A stretch of DNA of 41,515 bases from Anaerolineae bacterium. Lineage in GTDB: Bacteria > Chloroflexota > Anaerolineae > Aggregatilineales > UBA3940. The position numbers and the translations under genes were made by a program. The stretch's first letter is position 1, and every line of letters begins with the position of its first letter. The notes beneath the pieces were generated by a model, which made no database searches, was not told the DNA's origin, and saw only the letters and a list, made by a program, of their open reading frames with translations. This document shows, piece by piece, positions 235-31,248 of the stretch. The DNA lies in contig JAFGOY010000082.1 in the NCBI GenBank assembly GCA_016926255.1, forward strand, positions 1 to 41,515. The letters are read 5' to 3'.

Positions 235-1740
235 CTACCGGTTTTGAGTGGCAGCAGCCAGGTCTTCGAGAATGCGGCTGACGATCCGCTCCCCGGAGTG
301 GCCATCGAAGGGGGTGAGCTGCTCCTGCCGGATTTGTTCCCGCCCTGCTTCGTCCAGCGAAGGCGTTTCGAGGTAAGCCCTGACCGCTTTGTCCAGCTCG
401 TCATAGGATTTGACCAGCCGGGTGCCATGTGGGGCCATGATCATCGCGTAGTGGTTGTAGTCGTAGCGAAACAGGATCGACTTTTCGTAGGGTAGATCGC
501 GGTCGCCATCGAAGCCGACGTGGATCACCGGCGTATCGAAGGCGATGGCGTCCAGCGACAGCGTGCTGGGGCCGTTGATCACCAGGTCGGCGTGCTTCAT
601 CAGGTTGATAAGCTGCCGGAGATCGCCAGTGGCCTGATCGGTAGAGCCTTCGTCCAGATCGGTGCTGAAGTCGCTCGAACGCCCGACGATTACATTGTCG
701 TAGGCTTTCAGCTTCCCGAAGCGTTCTCCCCAGAGTTCGTCTTTGGGGTGGGGACGGATCAGCATCGTGGTCGGGAATCCGTAACCCTGCGCGGCGAACT
801 TCTCCGCAAGGTGCCGGGCGATTTCCGGTTCATCAGGGCCGAGGCGGGTATTGTACGTTCCATAGACGACCAGTCTGTGGGTCGGGTCGATCCCCAGGCC
901 GCGCAGAAACGTTTCACGGTCGACCAGTAAGCCGGGCCGGTGATACAGGTCGAGGTGCGCCGCGCCAACCACGTGTACCTGTTCCGGCAGGAAATGGTGA
1001 TACGAGATCATCTCCCGGCGCATGTTCTGGTTCCAGACCATCACGCTTTGGACATCCGGGGAAAGCGGGCCTTTCGTCGTCGGTTGATCCCAACTGTTGA
1101 TGTAGGTAGTCATCGGGACGGCGTGCTGGCGGGCCGCCAGGCTGATCCAGTGCGCCTGGATCGTCTGCGGGTAGGTGATCACTGCCAGGTTGGGCCGGTG
1201 CTGATCGAATATCTCGTCGAGCCGGTCGAGCACCGGCCAGCCTTTCGCTGTGAACAGTCGGTACAACTGATCGTAAATCCACCGGCTGTCCGGGAAAGGC
1301 CAGCCCAGGTAGCGGAACTCGCCGAACTTGCGGAAGCGTTCCTTCGCCGGGAGGTGCCGTTTGAGCTTCTGCGTCCTGAAGTCATTCAAATGGTTGAAGC
1401 GGTAGATCAGCCGGATGTGGATCGCAAAGCGAATCGCCTGCACGATCCGCAGGTAAATCCGCCGGATCACCCTGTGCAGGTTATCGAGAGAGGGCTTCTT
1501 GAGCAGTTTCCGCAGGCTGTCCCACACGTAAGTCCCGAAGCGCAGATACTCCCATTGGATGTGTTCGAAGCCCTGCTCTGCCACGTACTCGCCGTGTGCC
1601 TTCGCCTGGGTGACCATCACGAAGTCGACGTCGGTCGTCCGGGCCAACTCTTCCCACAGCGGTGTGAACAGAAAGTTCCGCACCGAGAAAATATCGAGCA
1701 GGAAGATCAGTATGGTGGGACGGTCGGCAGAGTCGGTCAT
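235..1740 (-). CDS. GT-B-fold glycosyl/glycerophosphotransferase-like protein
   Basis: A 501-residue, apparently cytoplasmic protein with no signal peptide and no clear membrane span. Around residue 216 it has a SWDQPTTKG segment, followed by VMVWN and a VVGAAHLDLY block (about 257-266). Near residue 400 it has INGPSTLSLDAIAFDTPVI, the pattern of the C-terminal donor-binding half of GT-B enzymes and of CDP-glycerol glycerophosphotransferase-like proteins. It is the last gene of the minus-strand nonulosonate locus, 151 bp after neuC. That position makes it a candidate for transferring or modifying the activated sugar on a surface polymer, but the substrate is an inference. The ATG at 1740 lacks a good Shine-Dalgarno sequence, so the start is not certain. 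A palindromic repeat lies between it and neuC. Confidence 0.7.
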   Translation of the reverse strand: MTDSADRPTILIFLLDIFSVRNFLFTPLWEELARTTDVDFVMVTQAKAHGEYVAEQGFEHIQWEYLRFGTYVWDSLRKLLKKPSLDNLHRVIRRIYLRIVQAIRFAIHIRLIYRFNHLNDFRTQKLKRHLPAKERFRKFGEFRYLGWPFPDSRWIYDQLYRLFTAKGWPVLDRLDEIFDQHRPNLAVITYPQTIQAHWISLAARQHAVPMTTYINSWDQPTTKGPLSPDVQSVMVWNQNMRREMISYHHFLPEQVHVVGAAHLDLYHRPGLLVDRETFLRGLGIDPTHRLVVYGTYNTRLGPDEPEIARHLAEKFAAQGYGFPTTMLIRPHPKDELWGERFGKLKAYDNVIVGRSSDFSTDLDEGSTDQATGDLRQLINLMKHADLVINGPSTLSLDAIAFDTPVIHVGFDGDRDLPYEKSILFRYDYNHYAMIMAPHGTRLVKSYDELDKAVRAYLETPSLDEAGREQIRQEQLTPFDGHSGERIVSRILEDLAAATQNR

Positions 1741-1891: not shown

Positions 1892-3052
1892 TCAGTAGGT
1901 GATCTTCTTTTGCAGCGTCACGTCGGCGGATGCCAGCACATCGGCGATCCGCTCCCCCGCGTGGCCGTCGCCGTAAATATGCTCCGACTTGTAGTGCCCG
2001 TTGTCGAGCTGCTTCTCGATTGCCGCCGCAATCTGATTGCGGTCGTAGCCAACGTCGATGATGTTCTTCCCGCGCTGCCGTCCGTTCTGTCGGCTGCCGA
2101 CGTTGACCGCCGGGATGCCCAGGAACTCGCCTTCGCGTACCGCCGAGCTTGAGTTGCCGACCATGCACGCGCAGCGGTTCATCAGCCGGATGAAGGTCTC
2201 GACCGGGAAATTCTTGTAGAAGCGGATGTGCTCGTGCTTGTGCCGCTCGCGGAACTTCCGCATCCCGCGGGAGATGTCCTCCGAACCCGCGTCGACGTTC
2301 GGCCAGAGCATGATCGCCGGGATTTGCAGCACTTCGAGTGCCATCAGCGTCTCGCTGATCTGGTCTTCACCCTGGCCGTATTCGGTCGTTACCGGATGCT
2401 GTGACACCAGCAGGAAGGGCTGATCCAGGTCGATCTCGCCGCCGACGCCTTCGAACTCCAGCCAGGCGCGTTCGGGCAGCGCGTTGTCGTTCTCGACCAC
2501 CTCGGCAACCAGGTCCATGCGCGGACAGCCGACGACGTGGACGGTCGCCGGGTCTTCGCCCATTTTGACGATCCGGTCGGCGGCGTGCTGGTTCGCCGGG
2601 AAATGGATATGCGCCAGCTTGGTGACCGCGTGGCGGATGCTCTCGTCGATGGTGCCGCTGATCTCGCCGCCCATCGTGTGGGCCAGCGGGATGTTCATGT
2701 AGGCGGCGGCGATGGCAGTCGCCATCGTCTCGAAGCGGTCGCCGACGGTGATCACGATGTCGGGTTGCAGGTTGTCGAAGACGGTGGGCAGTTCGAGCAG
2801 CCCCAGCCCGGTCGATTTCGCCATCGTGAGCGGCGTTTCCCCCTCGATGATCATGTGGACGCGGGCGTCGGGTTTGAAGCCATCGGCCTCGATCACCTCG
2901 ACCACCGATCCGAAGCGGTCGAGCAGGGCCGACGCCCCGGCCACGACGATCAGTTCGAGATCGGGGTGATCTTGTATGGCGCGCATGGCGCTCTTGATGC
3001 TGCTATAATTGGCGCGGGAGCCGACCACGACGCCGATTTTTCGCTTGGGCAT
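1892..3052 (-). CDS. neuC: UDP-N-acetylglucosamine 2-epimerase, hydrolysing (NeuC/NnaA type)
   Basis: Converts UDP-GlcNAc (or a related UDP-sugar) to ManNAc plus UDP, the first step of nonulosonic acid synthesis, in the cytoplasm. The 386-residue protein begins KIGVVVGSRANYSSIK (Rossmann start of the GT-B fold). It carries GDRFETMATAIAAAYMNIPL and then MGGEISGTIDESIRHAVTK, the signature of the hydrolysing epimerases of the NeuC/LegG group. The length is usual for the family. I place the start at the ATG at 3052, which follows an AGAGAG ribosome site; an upstream in-frame codon at 3088 adds 12 implausible residues. It is separated from neuB by the plus-strand cassette at 3161-3809, so it probably has its own promoter (TGGTACAAT about 50 bp upstream). 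LegG-type activity on a diamino sugar cannot be excluded. Confidence 0.92.
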   Translation of the reverse strand: MPKRKIGVVVGSRANYSSIKSAMRAIQDHPDLELIVVAGASALLDRFGSVVEVIEADGFKPDARVHMIIEGETPLTMAKSTGLGLLELPTVFDNLQPDIVITVGDRFETMATAIAAAYMNIPLAHTMGGEISGTIDESIRHAVTKLAHIHFPANQHAADRIVKMGEDPATVHVVGCPRMDLVAEVVENDNALPERAWLEFEGVGGEIDLDQPFLLVSQHPVTTEYGQGEDQISETLMALEVLQIPAIMLWPNVDAGSEDISRGMRKFRERHKHEHIRFYKNFPVETFIRLMNRCACMVGNSSSAVREGEFLGIPAVNVGSRQNGRQRGKNIIDVGYDRNQIAAAIEKQLDNGHYKSEHIYGDGHAGERIADVLASADVTLQKKITY

Positions 3053-3160
3053 AATTCTCTCTTGTTTTACTTGGTATCGCGGAGGCAATCTTACTCTATC
3101 CGGGGCGATTGTACCAGTGGGCTTCAGGTAAAGTTAGCTTAACTATATAACCGAGGATGT

Positions 3161-3526
3161 ATGTCAATTCTAATCTTATACACTGATTTGAGAATCTTAC
3201 CATCCATTCTTCAGAAAGCGGAAGTGGAATGGTGCAAAGGCTTATCCGCATTCGACGCAGTTAGGCAATCCTTTGGATCGAAAGTCGCAAATGACATACA
3301 ACAAGACCTGATAAGGAACAATACAGAGCTAATTGTTGCTTGGTATAACAAAGCAAGCGGAGATATTTGTGAAATTGGTGGGGTTGGTACTCTTGATTGG
3401 GTGATAGACGACTATACATTGCTAACAATCACCTATGAAAATGCGAATACCACAGAAGAGCAGATAGCAGAAGCCGACCAATGGACTTTGGAAAATGACA
3501 TCTTAAAATATGAGGGATATCCCTAG
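3161..3526 (+). CDS. Hypothetical protein, first gene of an AT-rich cassette
   Basis: A 121-residue acidic protein that I do not recognise. It has no signal peptide, membrane span or cysteine motif. The ATG follows a GAGG ribosome site, and TATATAA just upstream could be a -10 element. Base composition and codon use are visibly AT-rich (AAT, ATA, AAA) compared with the flanking GC-rich neuC and neuB, and the strand is opposite to theirs, so the cassette looks acquired. Thirteen bases separate its stop from the next gene's start, implying co-transcription. Toxin-immunity or effector-immunity pairing is possible from the layout only. Confidence 0.65.
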   Translation: MSILILYTDLRILPSILQKAEVEWCKGLSAFDAVRQSFGSKVANDIQQDLIRNNTELIVAWYNKASGDICEIGGVGTLDWVIDDYTLLTITYENANTTEEQIAEADQWTLENDILKYEGYP

Positions 3527-3539
3527 ACGACGACTTAAT

Positions 3540-3809
3540 ATGTTTCCAAAAGATGAACAAAACCGGTTAATTGAGCAGAGCAAACAGTTATATCAGTCAT
3601 CAAACGATGTTGAAGTTGTGTTACGATATCTGAGGGATGAAACAAACAATCGGGCTGTGACGTATGTTGTATTGATCGAGGCTATAGGTATGTCACCCCA
3701 AGAAGCAAAAAAGACAATACATTACAGCAAAACATGGGCTGATACGAAACCCCAACGAGAAGAGTTTTCAAAGTCGGTCAACAAGGCGCTAGATGAGATG
3801 AAGAAATAG
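3540..3809 (+). CDS. Small hypothetical protein, second gene of the AT-rich cassette
   Basis: An 89-residue, highly charged, helix-rich protein. Its middle (VTYVVLIEAIGMSPQEAKK, then HYSKTWAD) resembles the small alpha/beta module of ribosomal L7/L12 C-terminal-like domains found in stand-alone small proteins; this is a weak resemblance. I use the ATG at 3540. An in-frame ATG at 3510 would overlap the preceding gene and add ten arginine-rich residues. It ends 12 bp from the convergent neuB stop. Its composition is as AT-rich as that of its partner, and its function is unknown. Confidence 0.6.
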   Translation: MFPKDEQNRLIEQSKQLYQSSNDVEVVLRYLRDETNNRAVTYVVLIEAIGMSPQEAKKTIHYSKTWADTKPQREEFSKSVNKALDEMKK

Positions 3810-3821
3810 GCTTCTGCCCGC

Positions 3822-4838
3822 TCACCCCTCCAGATACGACTCCTTGATCAGCGTATCCTTCGGGATTTGATGCGCCGCCCGCCTGCCGATCACCTTTGCG
3901 TGGTCGCGGGCCGGGATGCCCGTCCCCGGCTTCTTGAACCCGATCATCGACCGCGTGATGATCACCCCGGCGGGGATGTCGATCACCGAGACGATGCTCT
4001 TTTCGAAGATTGCCTTCATCCCGGCATATGGCTCAATATCGTCCTTCTCGACCGGGCTGGCGAGTGTCGTCTCAATCGCCCGGATGCCCGCTACCAGATC
4101 GGCCAGTTCGGGCGGTTCGAGCGAGTGCCTGGCGTCGCTGCCGTACATGTGGCGGCTGAAGGTGAAATGCTTCTCGATCACCGACGCGCCGAGCGTCACC
4201 GCCGCAAAAGCCGCGTAATTCGTCAGCGTGTGGTCGGATAATCCGACCGGCAGCCCGTAGCGCTCGCGCATGTCGAGCATCACGTTCAGCCCGACCTGCT
4301 CATAAGGGCAGGGGTAGGCCGATGTACACTGCATCACCGTGACTCTGTCGTGGTAGCGCAGTAGCGTCTCTACCGCTGCATCGATCTCCGCCCAGGAACT
4401 CATCCCCGACGAGAGGTAAACGTGCTTCCCCGTCTCCCCGACTGCCTCCAGCAGCGGCAGGTTGGTCACCTCGCCGGAGGGAATCTTGTAGTGAATCACG
4501 TCCAATTCCTCAAGCAGTTCGACCGCCTCAATCGAAAACGGCGACGACAGGAAATCGACTCCCTGTGATTCGCAGCGTGCCTTGAGTTCCTGCAACTGCT
4601 TGAAGCTGAACGCCGTCCGCTCGAAGTATTCATAGCGCGGTTCGCCCTTGAAGTAGGGCGGCATCGGCGCATCGGGGAGCGTTTCGGCGTCGGAGATATG
4701 CGTCTGGAATTTGACCACATCCACGCCGCATTCGGCGGCGGTATCGATCAGGTGCAGGGCGTTGCCAAAGCTCCCGTCGTGAACCGATCCCACTTCGGCG
4801 ATGATGGCAACAGGTGTTGGGGCAGGTGTATTATTCAC
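3822..4838 (-). CDS. neuB: N-acetylneuraminate (nonulosonate) synthase
   Basis: Condenses ManNAc (or a related hexosamine) with phosphoenolpyruvate to the nine-carbon acid. The 338-residue protein has an N-terminal TIM barrel (about 1-265) with VVKFQTH, DFLSSPFSIEAVELLEEL, YKIPSGEVTNLPLL, GLSDHT and GASVIEKHFT. A C-terminal antifreeze-like SAF domain (about 275-338) contains KSIV, PAGVIITRSMIGFKKPGTGI and VIGRRA. The length is normal for NeuB. Its ATG overlaps the stop of the upstream sulfotransferase by 8 bp, so the two are translationally coupled. Order on the minus strand is neuA, sulfotransferase, neuB. Whether the product is Neu5Ac or a legionaminic or pseudaminic relative cannot be read from sequence alone. 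Confidence 0.94.
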   Translation of the reverse strand: MNNTPAPTPVAIIAEVGSVHDGSFGNALHLIDTAAECGVDVVKFQTHISDAETLPDAPMPPYFKGEPRYEYFERTAFSFKQLQELKARCESQGVDFLSSPFSIEAVELLEELDVIHYKIPSGEVTNLPLLEAVGETGKHVYLSSGMSSWAEIDAAVETLLRYHDRVTVMQCTSAYPCPYEQVGLNVMLDMRERYGLPVGLSDHTLTNYAAFAAVTLGASVIEKHFTFSRHMYGSDARHSLEPPELADLVAGIRAIETTLASPVEKDDIEPYAGMKAIFEKSIVSVIDIPAGVIITRSMIGFKKPGTGIPARDHAKVIGRRAAHQIPKDTLIKESYLEG

Positions 4839-5838
4839 GACTGGTCTCTTTCGATTCTCTCAGCGCGTTTCTCATCTTCCTTACGCTGCGAACCATCCTC
4901 ACGCCGGTGCGTGGTTTCTCTTTCAAAAAGGCTCCCGAAGTGCGTGTCAGCCTGCCGGGGGTGTCGGTATCCCGGTAGTCGAAGGCGTTAAGTGCATCCT
5001 TCAACCATACCTCCAGAAACTCGATTTCAGCCCCGGATAGTTTCTGCCTGAATTTCCCCACCGGTTTATCGGAAATTCCTTCGAACTCAACCATGTCCCG
5101 CGAATTTCCCGACCAGAACACGCCGTTCCGTGTGGGGATCAGCAGGTTGTCGTCCCACTGAATATCGAGAAAGCGGCAGATGTGTTTCAGGGTTGCCTCC
5201 GGCTCCCTGACCAGGTCTTCGTAGCGAATCCGCAGGCTGTGATCGGGGCGGCTGGCGGCGAAGCGTTCCCATTTGGCTATGCTGGCCGACCAGTCTTTCA
5301 CGAACCGGATCGGGTTGTAATCCCCGTGTTTCTGGCTGTAGTACGACGCATAATTATCCCTGGGATCGCGGACGATGTACAGCGCGCGGGCATCGGGCCA
5401 CCACCTGACGATCTCGTTCAAGCTGTGTTCATTGCTGGGAGTCTTTTCGACCCAATGTTTGCGATCTGTCTGCCCGGTGACATCCCCATAGCTGAAGATC
5501 ACCGCTTCGAGCATCGTCCTGGCAGAAGGTTCGGCGGCTTGCTGGCGGGCTTCGGTCAGCGACTTAAAGCGGGGGTAATCCAGGGCTTCGTAATTGCGAT
5601 ATCCCGATGTCCAGTTGACTTCGCCATGCTGGAAAGCCTGTATGGGTGTCTCGCTGAGCAGGTAGTCGAGTGACCACAACCGGGGTTCTGTTGCCCATTT
5701 CCGAAACATCGTTTCTTCCGGAAAGACAAGCAGCTCCGGGTGATGATCGAGCAGCGCCAGCAGCAAAGTTGTTCCTGATTTTGGAAATCCACAGATGAAT
5801 AACGGACTCCCGTAGTCTGTACCGTTAGCCGATGCCAT
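4831..5838 (-). CDS. PAPS-dependent sulfotransferase family protein
   Basis: Transfers sulfate from 3'-phosphoadenylyl sulfate to a hydroxyl group, commonly of a sugar. The 335-residue protein has the 5'-phosphosulfate loop GFPKSGTTLLLALLD near the N-terminus and the 3'-phosphate site LYIVRDPRDNYASYY in the middle. Its length fits Sulfotransfer_1/3 families, and no membrane anchor is seen. I choose the ATG at 5838, five bases after the neuA stop and preceded by AGGA; earlier starts overlap neuA. It overlaps neuB by 8 bp. Its place between neuA and neuB strongly suggests it works on the nonulosonate or the glycan carrying it; this is an inference from operon structure. Confidence 0.85.
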   Translation of the reverse strand: MASANGTDYGSPLFICGFPKSGTTLLLALLDHHPELLVFPEETMFRKWATEPRLWSLDYLLSETPIQAFQHGEVNWTSGYRNYEALDYPRFKSLTEARQQAAEPSARTMLEAVIFSYGDVTGQTDRKHWVEKTPSNEHSLNEIVRWWPDARALYIVRDPRDNYASYYSQKHGDYNPIRFVKDWSASIAKWERFAASRPDHSLRIRYEDLVREPEATLKHICRFLDIQWDDNLLIPTRNGVFWSGNSRDMVEFEGISDKPVGKFRQKLSGAEIEFLEVWLKDALNAFDYRDTDTPGRLTRTSGAFLKEKPRTGVRMVRSVRKMRNALRESKETSRE

Positions 5839-5843
5839 ACCTG

Positions 5844-6551
5844 TTAAGTCCTGTCTTTCAGCAGCCATTCGCACACTTTCAGGTCGAACGGCTCGTCGAT
5901 GTCGATTGACTCTTCGCGTGGCATTCCGTAGGCCGCCAGCCGGTGGCCGTACATCGTTTGTTCTTCGAGCAGCAGCCTTGTGCTGAACAGGTAGATCGCC
6001 GCGCCGTTTCGCGCATAGTAGATTGGTTTCTTATGCCGGATATTGTTCCGCTCATCGAAGGGGACGACCGGTTCCAGCCACCCGCCATGGTTGATCCGCA
6101 TCAGCGATTCGGGGATCATGTTGTGCGGGGCTTTGACAACGCTGACCAGCGAGTCGGCTCCCTGTTCGATATACAGGTCAATCGCCTCGTTGATATGTTT
6201 GCTGGTTCGCAGGGGGGAAGTCGGTTGGAGGAGCATTACTGCATCGGGGTGGTAGTCTTCATGATCGCGCAGCCACTCGACCGCGTGGATCACCACGTCG
6301 ATCCCCGGTGTTGAGTCGGTGGCCAGTTCCGCAGGTCGTAAGAATGGAACCTCGACTCCTCCCACTGCTTCGGCAGCCTCGATAATCGCCGGGTCATCGC
6401 TTGAGAGAACGACCCGATCCAACTGGCTGCTTCGGGCCGCTTCGATGGTCCACGCGATCAGCGGTTTGCCGCCCAATGACGTGATGTTCTTATGTGGAAT
6501 GCCTTTTGAGCCACCCCGCGCCGGGATCAGCCCCAGTACCCGTATCGACAT
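5844..6551 (-). CDS. neuA: CMP-N-acetylneuraminate (nonulosonate) cytidylyltransferase
   Basis: Activates the nine-carbon acid with CTP to the CMP-sugar donor. The 235-residue protein starts MSIRVLGLIPARGGSKGIP, the mononucleotide-binding loop of CMP-sugar synthetases. It continues with NITSLGGKPLIAWTIE, VVLSSDD, LLQPTSPLR and a C-terminal DIDEPFDLKVCEWLL, all typical of the family. The ATG at 6551 has a GGAGAGG site. An upstream in-frame start at 6593 adds a non-conserved leader and has no ribosome site. It is the first gene of the neuA-sulfotransferase-neuB unit, with a TATAAT hexamer 28 bp upstream. Confidence 0.93.
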   Translation of the reverse strand: MSIRVLGLIPARGGSKGIPHKNITSLGGKPLIAWTIEAARSSQLDRVVLSSDDPAIIEAAEAVGGVEVPFLRPAELATDSTPGIDVVIHAVEWLRDHEDYHPDAVMLLQPTSPLRTSKHINEAIDLYIEQGADSLVSVVKAPHNMIPESLMRINHGGWLEPVVPFDERNNIRHKKPIYYARNGAAIYLFSTRLLLEEQTMYGHRLAAYGMPREESIDIDEPFDLKVCEWLLKDRT

Positions 6552-29682: not shown

Positions 29683-31248
29683 CTACTCAAACTCAATACC
29701 GACCTTTTCCCGCAGATAGTCGGCGGTCAGCCGCGCGGCTGTCTGCGTGCCGGTTGCGTTCCAGTGCCCATCGGTCGTGAAGCACAGCGGCGGCGACTCT
29801 TTGGCCGCTTCGCGCATATCGTCTGTCAGGTTGTAGCAGTACCGCCCCTGTTCGGTCATCCAGTTGCAGAGCGTATCGTATGCTTCGTTCTCCTGATCGG
29901 GCAGCCCGGCATCCTCTGGGAAGGCGGCGGCATATTCTTCGTTGTAGATCGACCGTTTTGATGGAATTGTGACTACCACCAGCGTCATCCCCATTTCGCC
30001 GGCCAGTTCTTGCGCCGTGTTCAGCCGCTCCCCGACGATCCCCTCTGGAGTCAGGTATTCGCTGTAGATACCCCCGCCCCGATCGAGCGTGATCCCGTTG
30101 TCCAGTTCGACCCGGTTCTTGTTTTCCGGGGACGCAGTGCTTTCTGATGCCCGGTGCCCCCAGCCGTTCACCGTATCGATAATGTGAGTCAGCGGCGATT
30201 TTTCGAAGAACAGGTAGCTCGTGTAGTTGACCGGCGACATATAATAGAGGATGCCGTTGACCGCCATTCGTTCGTAGAGCAGTTCTTCCCGGTGTGAGTC
30301 GTCGATCAGGTCGTTGATGAATACCCCATAGATCAGCACCTCGGCGTCGGTGTCGCGCACCATGATGTCGGTCATCTGGTTGTAGTACCACAGCGAAGTC
30401 CCGATCACCCCGTAGCTTGCCGCCTCGACCCCCATCTCCTTGCCGATCTGAGTCGACCACATGTCGTCATAGTCCAGGCACACCCCGAACACGTAGCTGT
30501 CCCCGACGACCGCAATCGGCGCGCTTTCCGATCCCGGTGGATTCCGGTAGCCGCGCGAGTCGGTAAAGTAGGTGACCCCCTTGGCTTCTTCCGGACAGCC
30601 CAGCGGTTCGTAGTTTTCCAGGTTGGCCTTGCCCCGATATCCCATCCGCAGGTCGTAGCGCAGATAATCCCCCCAGTTGTGGATCAGGTCGCGGCTGCCC
30701 CGGTAATCGATTACCCGTGTCAGCACCACCGAGAACAACCAGAAACTTACCAGCAGGCTGATAACCGCCAGCCCCAGCGAAGCGATCGTCATCCCCCGTT
30801 CTTTTCGCTCCCGCCCGCCCAGCATAATCGCCAATCCCAGCCAGACCAGCGCCAGCAGCAGTGCAGCGAAAAAGACCCGCCGCGCCGTGACTGGCGCAAA
30901 CGCCACACGCTGAGTCAATGTATTGACCTGAAACCACGCTTCATAGCCACCTACCAGCAGGATCGTCGTCAGCCACCATTTCTTTCGAAGCCATTGCGAT
31001 GTGCTGTCGATCCAGGTAACCAGCCATCGGGGTGGGCGGATACCGAGGTAGACCGTCAACAGCCACCCCGCGACGAGCGGCAGCAGCAGCAGGAAATACT
31101 CGGTGCTGTACCGCTTGAATATCACCGCCGGGAGGCTTTCGCGGGTCAGCAGCCCGTACAGCCCCAACCCTTCGATGGCGGCCAGGGCCAGCAATACAAA
31201 TCGTGTAAATCGGGTATCTGTGTCGACGTTGGTTGTTTGTTCGCTCAT
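29683..31248 (-). CDS. Membrane-anchored SGNH/AlgX-like O-acetyltransferase-type protein
   Basis: A 521-residue protein with about five N-terminal membrane spans (within 14-180) and a C-terminal extracytoplasmic SGNH-type domain. The nucleophile motif is AVVGDSYVFG (Ser251), and the Asp-His pair is in TTDGHWNATG (Asp493, His495), the arrangement seen in AlgJ/AlgX-like polysaccharide O-acetyltransferases and related hydrolases. GVFINDLIDDS is block-III-like. A role in modifying an exported polysaccharide is an inference from the family. The ATG at 31248 has an AGGAAAAG site. No MBOAT partner is nearby. Confidence 0.75.
   Translation of the reverse strand: MSEQTTNVDTDTRFTRFVLLALAAIEGLGLYGLLTRESLPAVIFKRYSTEYFLLLLPLVAGWLLTVYLGIRPPRWLVTWIDSTSQWLRKKWWLTTILLVGGYEAWFQVNTLTQRVAFAPVTARRVFFAALLLALVWLGLAIMLGGRERKERGMTIASLGLAVISLLVSFWLFSVVLTRVIDYRGSRDLIHNWGDYLRYDLRMGYRGKANLENYEPLGCPEEAKGVTYFTDSRGYRNPPGSESAPIAVVGDSYVFGVCLDYDDMWSTQIGKEMGVEAASYGVIGTSLWYYNQMTDIMVRDTDAEVLIYGVFINDLIDDSHREELLYERMAVNGILYYMSPVNYTSYLFFEKSPLTHIIDTVNGWGHRASESTASPENKNRVELDNGITLDRGGGIYSEYLTPEGIVGERLNTAQELAGEMGMTLVVVTIPSKRSIYNEEYAAAFPEDAGLPDQENEAYDTLCNWMTEQGRYCYNLTDDMREAAKESPPLCFTTDGHWNATGTQTAARLTADYLREKVGIEFE

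Follow-up and report, generated by a model that had tools for sequence, protein, structure and literature searches.

A sulfotransferase clade linked to nonulosonate synthesis genes in Anaerolineae and Omnitrophota

Sialic acids that carry sulfate are known in animals, where the vertebrate enzymes WSCD1 and WSCD2 sulfate glycan-bound Neu5Ac at O-8 (PMC9304399). Among microbial glycoconjugates, the EPS of granular sludge contains nonulosonic acids together with sulfate groups, and few sulfotransferase genes were found there (PMC10483923); this is a chemical observation on mixed communities and comes without genes that join both modifications. The Halorubrum S-layer N-glycan carries a sulfated/phosphorylated hexuronic acid next to legionaminic acid (PMC6137143). 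The bacterial neuABC/nab clusters combine NeuC, NeuB and NeuA with a linked glycosyltransferase. The locus described here shares this composition but differs by having a sulfotransferase gene between neuA and neuB, and clusters related to it add a PAPS synthase and several sulfotransferases. An earlier note on this DNA knew of no described bacterial operon of this form. In the open-access literature we likewise found no description of a bacterial nonulosonate-sulfotransferase gene cluster, which is weak evidence of absence. The single parts are all of known kinds; their conserved combination appears to be undescribed.

The window, i. e. the whole stretch of DNA analysed, is the entire contig C33 (41,515 bp) of a 4.6-Mb assembly with 82 contigs and a completeness of 96%. 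On its minus strand, neuA (5844..6551) is followed by the sulfotransferase gene (4831..5838) and neuB (3822..4838). The tight coupling of these genes that had been noted earlier is exact: a gap of 5 bp separates neuA (stop codon 5844-5846) from the sulfotransferase gene (ATG at 5838), which in turn overlaps neuB by 8 bp (sulfotransferase stop codon 4831-4833, neuB GTG at 4838). The gene neuC (1892..3052) had been described as nearby. It does lie downstream on the same strand, but about 770 bp of AT-rich DNA separate it from neuB. This segment (3053..3821) has a GC content of about 0.40, compared with 0.57 for the window, and holds two overlapping plus-strand ORFs (3161-3526, 121 aa; 3510-3809, 99 aa), neither of which had a match in Pfam, NCBIfam or PHROGs. 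No convincing terminal repeats were found at the segment. In the orthologous loci of relatives it is absent and neuB directly adjoins neuC, so that it probably represents inserted DNA in the window.

Downstream of neuC, at the contig edge, lies the gene for a 501-aa glycosyltransferase (235..1740, minus strand). About 235 bp of the contig remain beyond it, and some part of a larger cluster could thus have been lost. The protein had no Pfam match, and its similarity to the BFO_1060/TIGR04396 group is partial and below the NCBIfam cut-off. As distant homologues (25%) adjoin neuB and neuC in locus L116 and neuA and a sulfotransferase gene in L072, it may be a nonulosonate transferase. Elsewhere on the contig, 29683-31248 encodes a 521-aa protein with a C-terminal match to AlgX-like SGNH acetyltransferases, possibly a further glycan-modifying gene.

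The motifs of NeuA, NeuB, NeuC and the sulfotransferase had been called intact, and the key motifs are indeed so. The products were compared with Pfam, NCBIfam and PDB, and the sulfotransferase also with TPST1. The neuA product matched CTP_transf_3 in Pfam (8e-22) and, below the cut-off, PseF in NCBIfam (135 bits). In the PDB it matches CMP-Neu5Ac synthetases best (5e-39), for which reason an assignment as kdsB was rejected; by its sequence relationships it is a PseF/NeuA-type cytidylyltransferase. NeuB has the NeuB (5e-78) and SAF domains of Pfam and Neisseria NeuB/SiaC as best PDB match (5e-52). Its best NCBIfam model was N-acetylneuraminate synthase TIGR03569 with 355.3 bits, under the cut-off of 399.65, with PseI at 244. 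The neuC product, a predicted hydrolysing UDP-GlcNAc 2-epimerase, matched Epimerase_2 (Pfam, 8e-73), had the human GNE epimerase as best PDB match (9e-76) and scored above the cut-off of the NCBIfam equivalog TIGR03568 (400.7 versus 235.9 bits). From these matches, a Neu5Ac-like nonulosonate is the likeliest product of the locus. The same genome has two further nonulosonate loci, both without a sulfotransferase gene. One (L028, C20:72000-91000) is a large neuA-neuB-neuC cluster, legionaminate-type by our reading, that adjoins putative amidotransferase and nucleotidyltransferase genes; the other (L029, C23:170000-189000) consists of a neuA-neuC operon and a divergent neuB.

The sulfotransferase itself matched Sulfotransfer_3 in Pfam (1e-33; 117.6 bits against a curated cut-off of 27). 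Among solved structures, those closest to it in sequence are tyrosylprotein sulfotransferases and the CurM/olefin-synthase sulfotransferase domains. With these it shares the fold and the PAPS-binding and catalytic residues, but identity is only about 20-24%, the gene context is different and the acceptor is probably different too. An AlphaFold model from a 16-row alignment (pLDDT 83, pTM 0.85) matched TPST and CurM-like sulfotransferases with Z of about 20-21; carbohydrate sulfotransferases have the same fold and appeared lower in the list of structure matches. The 5'-phosphosulfate-binding motif FICGFPKSGTTL (residues 14-25; 5764..5799, minus strand), with the PKSGTT(LL) loop, is near-invariant in the 16-member clade described below and aligns with TPST1. 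R157 and S165 of the 3'-phosphate-binding motif RDPRDNYASY (residues 157-166; 5341..5370, minus strand) also align with TPST1; in this motif R157, P159, N162 and Y166 are invariant in the clade. E42 aligns with the glutamate of GEET and K132 with the lysine of CNKDP in tyrosylprotein sulfotransferase 1. That E42, K132, R157, S165 and the loop serve as catalytic base and cofactor contacts is assumed by transfer from TPST2. A signature of the clade is PTRNGVFWSGNS (residues 235-246; 5101..5136, minus strand), in which P235, G239, W242, G244, N245 and S246 are invariant in all 16 members.

The likeness to WSCD1 and WSCD2 would lie in the PAPS-dependent sulfation of a sialic-acid-type sugar, which for the window protein is only proposed. 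Compared by description, the WSCD proteins, whose substrate is glycan-bound Neu5Ac, carry a WSC domain as well as a membrane span, whereas the window protein has neither of these two features. Pfam returned sulfotransferase families only and no WSC domain, and no WSCD entry was among the PDB structure matches listed. Since the WSC domain is missing and the protein starts directly with the phosphosulfate loop, it is predicted to be a cytosolic PAPS-dependent O-sulfotransferase. A relationship to NodH/NoeE was rejected, the NoeE equivalog of NCBIfam reaching 26.9 bits over 29 residues with a cut-off of 500.

The earlier note had proposed a survey of the neuA-sulfotransferase-neuB synteny, and this was done from the side of the sulfotransferase. 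Relatives were gathered by sulfotransferase sequence alone, from a genome-collection scan and from searches of the class and the order; a single-sequence query gave no matches and a three-row alignment was used. Neighbouring genes were scored afterwards with profile models. The loci that carried titles in the scan came mostly from metagenome-assembled genomes of Chloroflexota/Anaerolineae. In a tree of 64 sulfotransferases, a collection that is under-sampled because the scan demanded exact short peptide matches, the window protein groups with 15 others in a supported clade (98/93), referred to below as ST1. Twelve of the 16 members have neuA or neuB within 10 kb (11/15 without the window). Such linkage was found for only one of 41 other sulfotransferases (Fisher p 1e-7) and, when those of Chloroflexota origin were read alike, for 1/25 (p 6e-6), with p values that overstate the independence of the evidence, since the rows share common ancestry and part of the flanking sequences are short. 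A second family, ST2, was linked to neuA or neuB in six of seven cases. Of the four unlinked ST1 members, three (L058, L061, L064) come from contigs that are short or cut; L058 nonetheless retains the remainder of the conserved cluster described below. The fourth, L025, is the nearest homologue of the window protein (44%); on its 12.5-kb contig it is truly unlinked to neu genes and lies outside glycan genes. The family is also rare, being found in 3/396 genomes of the class and in 3/237 of Omnitrophota. A sulfotransferase not conserved with neu genes, which had been named as an outcome that would refute the idea of a sulfated nonulosonate or glycan, is thus not what the survey returned, and in a broad form the result favours that idea. 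What did not extend beyond the window is the exact gene order.

Starting from NeuB instead, strong matches were found in 26/160 Anaerolineae genomes, and 36 loci were read, which are the NeuB places of 25 genomes with that of the window left out. A PAPS synthase was encoded near NeuB in six loci, which belong to a single family (f34); the homologue of this synthase in L049 is an ATP sulfurylase fused to an APS kinase (Pfam). A third sulfotransferase type, ST3 (Sulfotransfer_1 in Pfam), directly follows neuB in five of the six PAPS-synthase loci and also in L066. These ST3 genes downstream of neuB are at L066 17590-18453, L122 6166-7020, L128 2801-3655, L129 9915-10769, L130 9832-10710 and L132 7752-8606; extra ST3 copies occur in L130, L132 and L068. 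The conserved cluster, which many Anaerolineae carry, runs SpsF, GT2, GT2, ST2, Gfo/Idh, (ST1) and PAPS synthase, then GT39, SDR, NeuA fused to a KdsC/Kdn-9-phosphatase-like domain, NeuB and ST3, with the names GT2 and GT39 assigned by reading. Two or three sulfotransferases and several glycosyltransferases are thus present in such clusters. ST1 is found at different places in different genomes although the set of genes is the same, which argues for a shared function and against frozen neighbours. The window has neither a PAPS synthase nor the NeuA-phosphatase fusion. PAPS synthase and sulfotransferase are both missing from the majority of the other neuB loci of the class. In G437:C173, G438:C288, G439:C89 and G217:C4 (L125) the NeuB matches lie in frames of unusual length (638-736 aa), which may be fusions to a second enzyme.

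The linkage is not confined to Chloroflexota. In the Omnitrophota locus L069, ST1 is followed by a methyltransferase gene, neuB and neuC within a Wzt-type export cluster. In two further genomes of this phylum, related sulfotransferases are encoded near neuB and a DUF4910 gene; one of the two has a PseI above the cut-off. Judged by these matches, ST1-type genes accompany several kinds of nonulosonate. Genes for DUF4910/DUF2172 recur near sulfotransferase and neuB genes in two phyla (L097 7588-8967, L098 10363-11754, L049 14628-15953). Within the order of the window's genome, the nearest neuB orthologues (66-72%) stand directly before neuC in loci without a sulfotransferase gene, and conservation of the exact operon in the order was therefore rejected. 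A close neuB is present in four of 61 genomes, including that of the window, and a close ST1 in only two, which are also among the four; G028 has its neuB and ST1 on different contigs. From these counts, it seems that the pathway either gained ST1 or lost it.

In the proposed pathway, NeuC would form ManNAc, NeuB would condense it with PEP and NeuA would attach CMP, giving a CMP-activated, probably Neu5Ac-like nonulosonate. The cytosolic sulfotransferase would use PAPS to sulfate either this nonulosonate or the glycan receiving it before export. An APS kinase (C23:251197) and an ATP sulfurylase (C74:90003) are encoded in the same genome on two contigs other than the window, so that PAPS can plausibly be made. 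We infer the activity and acceptor of the enzyme, and likewise the glycan and its surface location, from the sequences. It is rather probable that, broadly speaking, the sulfotransferase is dedicated to the nonulosonate-bearing glycan. This is supported by the coupling in the window, the linkage of the clade, the clusters with ST2, ST3 and PAPS synthase, the Omnitrophota locus L069, the PAPS genes, and the fold and motifs. Against it count the unlinked L025, the neuB-neuC loci of the order without a sulfotransferase, the rarity of the family, the lack of a PAPS synthase in the window, and closest solved relatives that act on protein tyrosine or polyketides. The earlier suggestion of a sulfated nonulosonate, or of a sulfated glycan carrying it, is thus strengthened by the linkage of the clade to neu genes in Anaerolineae and Omnitrophota and by the PAPS synthase in many clusters, and weakened by a gene order seen only in the window and by the unlinked nearest homologue.

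With regard to the acceptor, we lean with some hesitation towards a hydroxyl of the nonulosonate itself, slightly favoured over a neighbouring sugar: the window locus holds little else than nonulosonate genes, one glycosyltransferase and the sulfotransferase, and across varied clusters the constant partner is the nonulosonate synthase. The neighbouring sugar of the same glycan is nearly as likely a target. The enzyme could act on e. g. a uronic acid or a hexose, with the nonulosonate left unsulfated and the co-location of the genes reflecting one common glycan. This would suit the conserved clusters with their two to three sulfotransferases and several glycosyltransferases, and in the one prokaryotic glycan found with both features, that of Halorubrum, the sulfate or phosphate is on the hexuronic acid (PMC6137143).

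Two explanations leave the glycan partnership aside. Sulfotransferase and neu genes are both common in polysaccharide clusters, as in the Wzt-type cluster L069, and linkage could arise from this without a specific partnership. We consider this unlikely, as other sulfotransferases of Chloroflexota origin are hardly ever linked, and as the many neuB loci of the class that lack PAPS synthase and sulfotransferase indicate an association specific to certain clusters. Even less probable is a protein tyrosine or small molecule as the substrate, with an accidental position in the operon. The nearest solved structures, i. e. tyrosylprotein sulfotransferases and polyketide-linked domains, would fit such a substrate, as would the location of L025 outside glycan genes; yet the identity to these relatives is low, carbohydrate sulfotransferases are common to the same fold, and the ST1 clade as such is linked to nonulosonate genes.

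On the preferred reading, in which the sulfotransferase serves the nonulosonate-bearing glycan, the bacteria that carry such clusters probably build sulfated sialic-acid-type surface sugars. Among the candidate genes that the clusters supply are those for a PAPS synthase beside neuB and for sulfotransferases of three types, and they make the question of sulfated nonulosonates in bacteria testable. Should they act on free or CMP-nonulosonates, the sulfotransferases would also be tools for making sulfated sialosides. More tentatively, the ST1 enzymes could be bacterial nonulosonate (sialate) O-sulfotransferases that sulfate nonulosonic acids directly, and the Anaerolineae cluster, with a PAPS synthase of its own and several sulfotransferases, could produce multiply sulfated, nonulosonate-rich surface polymers that may be a source of the sulfated and sialylated matrix of sludge granules.
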